Under the pieces are notes generated by a model. That model saw only the letters and a list, made by a program, of their open reading frames with translations, searched no databases and was not told the origin of the DNA. The position numbers and the translations under genes are program-made. Positions 5,303 to 17,051 of a stretch of DNA of 20,215 bases are shown here, piece by piece. Each line of letters opens with the position of its first letter. Position 1 is the stretch's first letter. The stretch comes from a virus. The stretch is from the IMG/VR virus record IMGVR_UViG_3300001419_000082, positions 1 through 20,215 of that record; one strand, given 5' to 3'.

Positions 5303-6292
5303 TTAGAAGTAATGGTCTGCGTTAATCACCATGAGCGGCATCTGCGACGAGTACCATCGGTTTGATGTATTCCATTTTGTCTGAATTTGTCTCCCAGATT
5401 CAGAGCGCCAAAATTGAACGGCACTGCCATTAAACCGATAGCCGCAACTGTAATAGTTATAAACTCCGCCGCTCATTTCTGAGTTACCACGCATGAACGC
5501 ATTCACCGCGAGGGGGATCATCGGCCTGGCAATCCCTGTATCGACCAAGTCTTCTGGGTTCCTGCCGACATTGACCGATCGACCATCCCAAACTAACGGC
5601 TCTGTATCGCTGGTGAACGTGTTATTACCGTCAGTGTTCTTAATCACCATTCCGTAGCCGCTTGGCGTCGGTGGGTAATAACCGCTGTTCATAATGACCA
5701 CTTTCACATTGGCCGTGGTTAACACCGCTTCACCCGAACCATTATCACGCGATACCGTTAACTCGTTATATTGCACAGCATGGTAAATAGAAACGCCGGG
5801 GTCATCGCACCGTACAAAGACAACCTTGGTGTTATCGTTTTGAACGACTGGCAATGTCCATTTTCCGTTAATCGTTACCTCACCTTTCCACGCAACAAAA
5901 CCCAGCCTGGACGAACTGTTAATGCTCATCCAGTCCACTGAGTTTTGAATCATTATTCCATACGTACCGGAAACTGATTGCGGTGGCTGAACCTGGTATA
6001 TGCTGAATTCGGTAAAAAATGCTTGTTGGTTTGCGCTTGAAAAATCAACAACTATTCTAGCTCCCTCGGTTCGCCATCCCGTAACCCCGCCGTAAAACGG
6101 AGGGGTTACGTTATCACCGAATATATACCCGGTCTGACCAACCAGAAATACCGGGTTACCAGCAACGTAATCAGGCGGAGTATAAATCTTTTGTTTATTG
6201 CCATCCGCCCAGGGTTCTTTATCGTTGGCTAACAGTGAAATACTATTAACCGCCGCCAGCGTTTTTCCGTTCATCCATAGGCCATACGCCAC
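5303..6292 (-). CDS. Tail-tip-associated protein, DUF6453-like
   Basis: A 329-residue protein directly after J. The start (MAYGLWMNG), the size, the tryptophan- and tyrosine-rich beta character (GWRTEGARIVVDF, LGFVAWKGEV, GYRFNGSAVQFW) and the position fit DUF6453 proteins found after J in enterobacterial prophages; I assign this from memory of the family and context. It is probably a structural protein at the tail tip or fibre base, and its function is unproven. The start is GTG at 6292; GGGGAGG (6300-6306), inside the end of J, is 7 nt upstream. Only one base separates the J stop from this start, so translation should be coupled. An intrinsic terminator follows immediately. Confidence 0.6.
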   Translation of the reverse strand: MAYGLWMNGKTLAAVNSISLLANDKEPWADGNKQKIYTPPDYVAGNPVFLVGQTGYIFGDNVTPPFYGGVTGWRTEGARIVVDFSSANQQAFFTEFSIYQVQPPQSVSGTYGIMIQNSVDWMSINSSSRLGFVAWKGEVTINGKWTLPVVQNDNTKVVFVRCDDPGVSIYHAVQYNELTVSRDNGSGEAVLTTANVKVVIMNSGYYPPTPSGYGMVIKNTDGNNTFTSDTEPLVWDGRSVNVGRNPEDLVDTGIARPMIPLAVNAFMRGNSEMSGGVYNYYSCGYRFNGSAVQFWRSESGRQIQTKWNTSNRWYSSQMPLMVINADHYF

Positions 6293-15729: not shown

Positions 15730-16326
15730 TTCCAAGCACTCGCATAACGTCAGCACACTGCGCATCTATCAAACTTTGCGCAGGCTGAACGGGTTGACGA
15801 ACAAAGGCATCCTCAGCAGCATCAGCAGTAATGCCCTGCAGCTTGAAGTATGCCCGCCAGTAATTCAGGATTTGTGCCGGCAACGCGGCTATTTTGCGGG
15901 GATCAGACTCACCCCAACGGTCTGCCAACTGGAAAATCAGCATCAGCCAGGGTGAGTCAGTCAGTTTTTTTCCGCTTCTTCCAGCGTGCCTACGGCGTGA
16001 CGCTTGACGGTGCTGATCGCCTCGACCAGTGTCGGGTTATCATGTGCAGCAAGCAGATCATCCACGCTGGGCAGTGCATTTGCAGGAATACGTTTGCCAT
16101 CTGGCGTCATAAAGCAGGACAGTAGCAATTCAACGTTGAGCCGCGCGGCCTTATTCATATCCCCGGCTTCGATGGCATCTTTCATGCCATCCTCATTATC
16201 CTGCAGTTCTGAGGCCTTCAGGCGGCGGATAAAGGTTTTAGTGCCAAACATTGGCACTTCTGTCACGTGGTCGTCAGATTTCAAAAGAGCGGCCTTGAGC
16301 GCCTTCAGGTCATATTTCTCGGACAT
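15722..16326 (-). CDS. Tail assembly chaperone GT (programmed -1 frameshift product)
   Basis: Predicted 201-residue fusion. Ribosomes translate G to the slippery AAAAAAC (15970-15964), slip back one base and continue in the -1 frame from CTG at 15964, adding 80 residues (LTDSPWLMLIFQLADRW... to VLGNG) that end at 15722. The -1 frame is open through the junction, and no good Shine-Dalgarno precedes the ATG at 15943, so a separate T is unlikely. In lambda, G and GT together coat the tape measure and recruit tube protein, and are absent from the virion. The T part (ALPAQILNYWRAYFKLQG) ends just inside the H start, matching lambda order V-G-T-H. Confidence 0.88.
15906..15970 (-). promoter_or_regulatory. 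-1 frameshift signal for G/GT
   Basis: On the minus strand the heptamer A-AAA-AAC (15970-15964) is in the correct phase (codons GAA AAA AAC, then TGA). A 5-nt spacer follows, then a perfect 9-bp stem: GACTCACCC (15958-15950) with GGGTGAGTC (15914-15906), loop 35 nt. The seven-A run could also allow transcriptional slippage. Confidence 0.85.
15961..16326 (-). CDS. G: Tail assembly chaperone G
   Basis: A 121-residue protein in the position of lambda gpG. It starts MSEKYDLKALKAALLKSDD and contains VPMFGTKTFIRRLKASEL, in the style of phage tail assembly chaperones. It is highly charged and helical. The reading frame ends with GAA AAA AAC TGA, placing the slippery heptamer at the very end as in other siphophages. 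AAGGA is 6 nt upstream of the ATG. Most ribosomes would stop here and a minority would shift to make GT. It begins 9 nt after the Ig-like ORF. Confidence 0.88.
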   Translation of the reverse strand: MSEKYDLKALKAALLKSDDHVTEVPMFGTKTFIRRLKASELQDNEDGMKDAIEAGDMNKAARLNVELLLSCFMTPDGKRIPANALPSVDDLLAAHDNPTLVEAISTVKRHAVGTLEEAEKN

Positions 16327-16335
16327 TGATATTCC

Positions 16336-16599
16336 TTATTTAACAGTTACGGTTGCGGTAGCGCTGTTGATAGCGTCTGCCCGCTCGGCCGACATCACAA
16401 CGCGATAAGCGCCAGCATCCGCCGCCACAATAGAGTTTTTGGTAAAGGTGGCAGAGGTTGCGCCGCTGATATCAGTGCCGTTTTTCTGCCATTGATATTT
16501 AACGGGCTTTCCGTTACTTGAGGTAGCCGCAACAGTCAGGGACAAATTGCCCCCGACTGCCAGATCAGCGCTCTTCGGCTGGGTAGTCACGCTGATCAC
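16336..16599 (-). CDS. Ig-like domain ORF, likely -1 frameshift extension of the tail tube protein
   Basis: An 87-residue ORF that is a single bacterial Ig-like domain: VTTQPKSADLAVGGNLSLTV, the core tryptophan in KYQWQKNGTDI, then ADAGAYRVVMSAE and a final strand SATATVTVK. Lambda gpV carries an Ig-like domain at its C-terminus; here it lies in the -1 frame relative to the tube gene. The only start is a GTG at 16599 overlapping the tube stop (GTGA), with AAAGG just 1 nt away, too close for normal initiation. A slippery heptamer and hairpin at the junction suggest it is translated as a fusion: 150 tube residues, then Gly, then this domain, 238 in all. Coupled re-initiation from the GTG is the alternative. 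Ig domains on phage surfaces are thought to help adhesion. Confidence 0.75.
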   Translation of the reverse strand: MISVTTQPKSADLAVGGNLSLTVAATSSNGKPVKYQWQKNGTDISGATSATFTKNSIVAADAGAYRVVMSAERADAINSATATVTVK

Positions 16600-16608
16600 A
16601 CCTTTGGG
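16563..16608 (-). promoter_or_regulatory. Candidate -1 frameshift signal, tail tube to Ig domain
   Basis: On the minus strand the heptamer C-CCA-AAG (16608-16602) is in phase (codons GCC CCA AAG GTG TGA). A 4-nt spacer (GTGT) leads to a perfect 8-bp stem: GATCAGCG (16597-16590) with CGCTGATC (16570-16563), loop 19 nt. The site resembles lambda's G-GGA-AAG. Slippage gives GGT GTG ATC in the Ig frame with no intervening stop. Confidence 0.7.
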
Positions 16609-17051
16609 GCTACAGCTCCCCAGGTGTTGTTGTTCTGCTTGCCTTGCACCGTGATTTGAATGACTTCACTCGCCGGAGCGGTGATTTCGTTCATCTTCCA
16701 GCCGGACAGCGAGAGGATCGAGGTGGAGGTGCGACCGTTCGGCAGCTCAACATAAAATTGAACGGTTTCACGGTTGTCCGCAGCGGTCAGGAACGCCGCA
16801 AAATCGGTATTGGATGGATCGTCGATAAACCCGATCGACTTCTCCGCGCCTTCCGGCAGGTCGGAGATAAATTGCTTGGTGGTGTCGATCAGGGTCGTGC
16901 AATCAACAAAGCTGCCGGTTTGCCCCATTTCACCTACTGCTTTGCAGTTGGTCAGTGCCTTCATGGCCGTTGGGGCGGCGCCAATAGCACCCCACTTAAC
17001 GATCGTGCCGGCCGGCAGCATGGCATATTCTGGCGAAGTTTTATCAGCCAT
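16596..17051 (-). CDS. V: Major tail tube protein (gpV-like)
   Basis: A 151-residue tail tube protein whose hexamers stack around the tape measure. It starts MADKTSPEYAMLPAGTIVKWG and has the family's ISDLPEGAEKSIGFIDDPSN, a central FAAFLTAADNRETVQFYVELPNGRTST, a GWKMNEITAPASEVIQITVQGK strand pair and a short C-terminus. It resembles the tube domain of lambda gpV (246 residues) but ends where lambda's Ig-like domain begins. AGAGGA precedes the ATG. The last codons hold a slippery heptamer and are followed by an Ig-domain ORF in the -1 frame, so a minor 238-residue form is predicted. It sits between the neck genes and G/GT. Confidence 0.88.
   Translation of the reverse strand: MADKTSPEYAMLPAGTIVKWGAIGAAPTAMKALTNCKAVGEMGQTGSFVDCTTLIDTTKQFISDLPEGAEKSIGFIDDPSNTDFAAFLTAADNRETVQFYVELPNGRTSTSILSLSGWKMNEITAPASEVIQITVQGKQNNNTWGAVAPKV

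Follow-up and report, generated by a model that had tools for sequence, protein, structure and literature searches.

Ig-like domains on the tail tubes of described phages

Ig-like extensions that frameshifting adds to structural proteins of phages are established for SPP1 gp17.1* (+1), T3, A2 and Listeria phages (PMC5009743, PMC8718954), and a review puts many of the Ig domains in phage proteins down to programmed frameshifting (PMC9022992). The tail tube of SPP1 contains gp17.1 together with gp17.1*, a minority form that is made by frameshifting and ends in a C-terminal Ig-fold (FN3) domain, in a ratio of 3:1 (PMC8718954). Lactobacillus phage A2 is cited in PMC5009743 and PMC7260188 for -1 frameshifting on its major tail and head proteins. 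In lambda gpV and the ES18-like tubes of Salmonella phages Oslo and 29485, tube and C-terminal Ig-like domain form one chain by in-frame fusion, and every subunit carries the domain (PMC8718954). The lambda chaperone gpG/gpGT is produced by a -1 slip at a gene-end X_XXY_YYZ heptamer and serves as an assembly factor that the virion does not contain (PMC5009743). The addition of Ig domains to phage tail proteins by frameshifting is thus already known, and the locus described here is a further, well-supported case.

We analysed a 20,215-bp IMG/VR virus record, the whole of which is called the window below. Its minus strand encodes a siphophage head-to-tail module with a Phage_capsid capsid protein, connectors, an HK97-gp10-like protein, the tube protein and a tail chaperone, followed downstream by tape measure, tip genes and fibres. 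The tube gene sits between the HK97-gp10-like gene and the chaperone gene, and relatives of the tube up to 97% identical were found in Serratia genomes. We propose, with a probability of about 90%, that the 3' end of the tube gene carries a programmed -1 frameshift site that adds an Ig-like domain to some of the subunits. Like SPP1, the window would thereby make a frameshift-derived minority tube form with a C-terminal Ig-fold domain, here a predicted one, but SPP1 is a Gram-positive phage that uses a +1 frameshift (PMC9022992) at another frameshift signal and carries FN3 rather than an I-set/Ig_3 type domain. A2, a member of another phage group, shares an Ig-like extension by -1 frameshifting as the review summarizes it. 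The window has the same two parts as lambda gpV and the ES18-like tubes, but in different frames, and its tube site resembles that of gpG/gpGT, which also recurs in the next gene of the window.

Yersinia phage PY54 has the same arrangement in gp12/gp13 (NP_892057/NP_892058), with a homologous tube and Ig domain, the C_CCA_AAG/TGA overlap, the -1 frame and two hairpins; its tube is 72% and its Ig domain 60% identical to those of the window, and its last tube codon is CCG instead of GTG. The PY54 records show two separate genes with no frameshift annotated, whereas gp12 is listed as an I-set-bearing major tail (tube) protein in PMC9022992. Since the database gp12 is the short form only, the authors of that review appear to have assumed a frameshift. 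Public records treat the tube and Ig frames as two genes, so databases lack the predicted longer tube protein. Added here are the conservation of the site across three clades, a natural Ig-loss experiment and a second hairpin. The well-supported implication is that an enterobacterial phage would use frameshifting to dose a surface Ig-like domain on its tube, where an in-frame fusion would put the domain on every subunit. With relatives that have lost the Ig domain, relatives with in-frame fusions and three Ig-bearing clades, the question of why phages dose Ig domains becomes open to direct testing, for which PY54 offers a phage already described.

Elements at the 3' end of the tube gene

The tube ORF ends in GCC CCA AAG GTG TGA. 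The preliminary description of this DNA had pointed to a slippery heptamer in the right phase 3 nt before the stop; the sequence agrees, and every coordinate given there is correct (Table 1). In E. coli, according to a review (PMC5009743), C_CCA_AAG is a highly shift-prone sequence. The main genes of the window hold only 14 in-frame X_XXY_YYZ heptamers in 5,433 codons, and only two of these, C_CCA_AAG of the tube and A_AAA_AAC of the chaperone, are no more than one codon away from a stop, which makes the heptamer at the tube end more than a chance occurrence. The chaperone site shows the classical lambda G/GT arrangement and therefore served as a control for the tube site: its -1 extension matched the C-terminal half of PHROG 25875 (15943-15722), and the same kind of chaperone frameshift is annotated as a putative programmed frameshift in phiKO2.

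The -1 frame had been described as open and as encoding one complete Ig-like domain. It is indeed open to 16336, and in addition to the Ig_3 match a complete Ig fold was predicted (AlphaFold2, mean pLDDT 96.4); in Foldseek the model matched Ig domains, with a TM of 0.91 to an Ig C2 domain. The transframe product comprises 238 aa with the junction ...TWGAVAPK-GVISVTTQPK....

The proposed mechanism is as follows. The majority of ribosomes would terminate at TGA, yielding the 151-aa tube protein. A fraction would be stalled at C_CCA_AAG by the one or two hairpins downstream and slip back by one base, with CCA/AAG re-pairing on CCC/AAA, and would read on to give the 238-aa protein with the C-terminal Ig-like domain. 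Both forms would join one hexameric tube, a fraction of whose subunits would show the Ig domain outward; that only some subunits would be decorated follows from the presumed partial nature of frameshifting. Slippage itself, its efficiency and the incorporation of the product into virions are inferred, as is, by analogy with lambda gpV and SPP1 gp17.1*, its surface exposure.

Table 1 Features of the tube, Ig and chaperone region, in window coordinates
Feature	Position	Strand	Remarks
Major tail tube protein gene, 151 aa	16596..17051	-	Pfam PF16463 Phage_TTP_13, E=6.9e-65; PHROG 158 major tail protein
-1 slippery heptamer C_CCA_AAG, X_XXY_YYZ phase	16602..16608	-	Ends 3 nt before the tube stop
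-1 frame after the predicted slip (GVISV...), one Ig-like domain, 88 aa and stop TAA	16336..16602	-	Pfam Ig_3, E=2.2e-8
GTG of the GTGA overlap with the tube stop, which may start a free Ig protein of 87 aa	16597..16599	-	In 45/45 Ig-bearing homologues, never ATG
Second in-frame GTG	16588..16590	-	Weak Shine-Dalgarno-like AAAGGUGUG, 6-nt spacing, -3.9 kcal/mol
Hairpin 1, GATCAGCG(T)/(G)CGCTGATC, 4 nt after the heptamer	16563..16597	-	-13.8 kcal/mol, z -4.2
Hairpin 2, GGCAGTCGGGGGCA/TTTGTCCCTGACTGTT, 14 bp	16531..16561	-	-22.4 kcal/mol, z -5.9; missed by the preliminary description
Tail assembly chaperone gene, lambda G-like	15961..16326	-	Pfam Phage_TAC_14, E=4.3e-35; positive control within the window
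Slippery A_AAA_AAC, chaperone gene end at TGA	15964..15970	-	Canonical G/GT-type frameshift
T-like -1 extension of the chaperone, about 80 residues	15722..15970	-	Open frame KKLTDSPWLML...

Conservation of the heptamer and the hairpins

Homologous loci were gathered by tube protein or family, by Ig protein and by Ig DNA patterns, none of which demanded the heptamer, and gave a set of 45 distinct Ig-bearing sequences covering tube, junction and Ig domain. These fall into three clades: clade A from Serratia, which includes the window; clade B from Yersinia, which includes phages PY54 and P840; and clade C, formed by L107 and L192-L207. The L107 tube is 75-79% identical to the tubes of clades A and B, and the clade C Ig domain only 41-49% identical to the others. 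In 45/45 sequences, for which the collecting pattern required AAG and GTGATCA but not CCCA, CCCAAAG is followed by one codon ending in G and by TGA, with the Ig domain in the -1 frame. Both heptamer codons (CCA AAG) are invariant in all 45 tubes, and they are always preceded by a C, which belongs to a residue that itself varies (A, S, T, P, V, I). In comparison, among tube columns with an invariant degenerate amino acid, counted without the first 12 and last 4 columns, the codon is invariant in only 2 of 75, and in none of 42 adjacent pairs. Since all columns evolved on one shared tree, relatedness does not explain this contrast. The synonymous conservation called for at the outset was thus found at the heptamer in every Ig-bearing homologue, together with the -1 phase.

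In the tube tree, the Ig-bearing tubes form three separate clades and the Ig-bearing label takes 5 changes, at least 3 of which are forced by well-supported branches. Ig-less Serratia tubes are nested within an Ig-bearing group and were read as cases of Ig loss. They retain the Pro/Ala-Lys-Val end and TGA, and their heptamer has drifted to CCGAAG, CCGAAA, GCGAAG, GCCAAAG or CCCAAAA; CCCAAAG is present in only one of them, L086. The heptamer has thus mostly decayed in the Ig-less lineage, which suggests that, L086 excepted, it is maintained only where the Ig frame can be reached. The invariant codons and the decay after Ig loss indicate purifying selection on the heptamer site beyond that on the protein. 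These results support the predicted programmed -1 frameshift that would fuse the Ig domain to the tube.

A perfect 8-bp stem had been noticed four nt past the heptamer. It is present, GATCAGCG (16597-16590) being the exact reverse complement of CGCTGATC (16570-16563), and it extends to 9 bp; 0.54% of positions have a perfect 8-bp stem (loop 3-30) that begins 3-9 nt downstream. Hairpin 2 begins one base past hairpin 1, and the two jointly reach -37.4 kcal/mol, compared with -22.5 for shuffles (z -4.7). Both are kept in clades A and B, hairpin 1 with G-U changes. When compared with 1,000 synonymous recodings of the Ig residues, the structure was more stable than expected in the window (z -4.3), in PY54 (-4.4; 0/1000 in each), in P840 (-3.5) and in L161 (-3.7), whereas it was weak in L045/L110 (z -1.68). 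In the same test clade C gave z -0.65 and -1.18, with no significant structure beyond the protein sequence, so the hairpins are not universal. The expectation that the stem is conserved across homologues therefore held in the Serratia and Yersinia clades but failed in L107 and its relatives.

In clades A and B, 96% of alignment cells pair, compared with 36-48% when the partner is slid by one to three columns. Almost all changes within pairs affect one side only, and the hairpins score no higher for covariation than shuffles do, so the case for the hairpins rests on synonymous recoding and synonymous conservation. As to the latter, comparisons of clade A with clade B find identical synonymous codons 142 times out of 175 (81%) at Ig codons 2-26, against 101 of 272 (37%) for the rest; for the window and PY54 alone the counts are 14/17 and 11/32 (Fisher p=0.002). 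A short recombination tract may contribute to this codon identity, but several amino-acid changes also lie in the segment. RNAalifold found no common structure in all 25 variants of the three clades. Support for the hairpins is thus good in clades A and B, where they would stimulate slippage, and lacking in clade C; their absence there suggests that stimulators differ between clades or are dispensable.

L107 and L192-L207 could form a different long stem, CAACGTATCG/CGATGCGTTG, 7 nt past the heptamer, which folds, but not beyond what the coding sequence gives in the recoding test, and was rejected. An internal Shine-Dalgarno, GGGGAG (16621-16616), 7 nt from the heptamer, is not claimed as a stimulator, since it is a product of conserved Trp-Gly codons and is lost in L045. 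Separately, the tube coding sequence itself contains a stable hairpin at 16898-16824 on the minus strand (GATCGAC.../...GTCGATC, -28.6 kcal/mol), with a synonymous-recoding z of -5.4, as extreme as that of the junction hairpins.

Starts and relatives of the Ig domain

The main rival to frameshifting is translational coupling, in which ribosomes ending at TGA reinitiate at the GTG of GTGA and produce a free Ig protein, perhaps a non-covalent, Hoc-like decoration. Four-base overlaps are common coupling junctions, and the GTG/TGA overlap is present in all 45 Ig-bearing homologues; PHROGs puts the Ig domain near Hoc-like decoration proteins, and the PY54 and P840 records annotate it as a separate gene. 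The overlap therefore suits coupling as well, and this counts against the frameshift reading, as does the identical heptamer in the Ig-less tube L086. However, coupling does not require CCA AAG to be synonymously invariant, nor this codon pair to decay upon Ig loss. A start of its own with a ribosome-binding site, as would mark a free Hoc-like protein, was not found: no Shine-Dalgarno lies at usable spacing from the GTG at 16599, which is never replaced by ATG and stands at the base of the stable, -13.8 kcal/mol hairpin.

The relatives of the Ig domain, which were sought in 392 sampled Enterobacteriaceae genomes, also speak against a free protein. The closest ones have either the same -1 arrangement or are in-frame C-terminal parts of ES18-like tubes, the latter in Salmonella phages Oslo and 29485 as well as in seven of the sampled genomes; in this close group, no gene for a free Ig domain turned up. 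On this basis, covalent attachment to the tube would be the rule for this Ig domain. Taken together, we consider coupled reinitiation improbable and prefer programmed frameshifting.

The preliminary description had taken a GTG lacking a usable Shine-Dalgarno as the only start of the Ig frame. The lack of a Shine-Dalgarno was borne out at 16599, but this GTG is not the only one, and independent initiation at GTG 16590 could use AAAGGUGUG, a weak Shine-Dalgarno-like match at 6-nt spacing, as its ribosome-binding site. This GTG is not conserved: the Yersinia clade lacks it, and it is GTT in PY54, P840, L161 and L162 and GTA in L045/L110 and the L107 clade; AAGG is missing in the Yersinia and L107 clades, and a start here would remove most of the first Ig strand (E2-6 in the AlphaFold2 model). 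Such a start was rejected as extremely unlikely. Equally implausible is a decayed remnant, left when a one-base indel disrupted an in-frame tube-Ig fusion as in Enterobacter asburiae plasmid p16773_4, a reading already refuted by conservation: the -1 arrangement is common to three clades, the Ig frame stays open with its protein sequence conserved (41-86% identity), and the junction is under synonymous constraint.

If frameshifting is the correct reading, the stimulator would lie within the Ig coding sequence, as a tandem pair of hairpins within the first 26 codons. It is conceivable, though speculative, that the Ig domain and its stimulator could move between tubes as a self-contained 'optional decoration' cassette, for which a recipient would need only a terminal C_CCA_AAG. 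The three separate Ig-bearing clades and the lineage with secondary Ig loss fit this idea.

Three further observations were made. In the E. asburiae plasmid (L266, 1034-1767), a one-base indel divides an ES18-like in-frame tube-Ig fusion into parts annotated as two genes, which likely reflects a broken gene or a sequencing error. Salmonella plasmid pZ1322SSL0070-3 (L267, 1033-1767) carries an unannotated tube-Ig gene whose frame changes mid-gene. Both were rejected as frameshift sites because they are isolated indels within in-frame fusions. Elsewhere in the window, a 329-aa protein with a match to PHROG 1265 (moron/membrane protein class) is encoded at 5303-6292 on the minus strand, between the tail tip and fibre genes.
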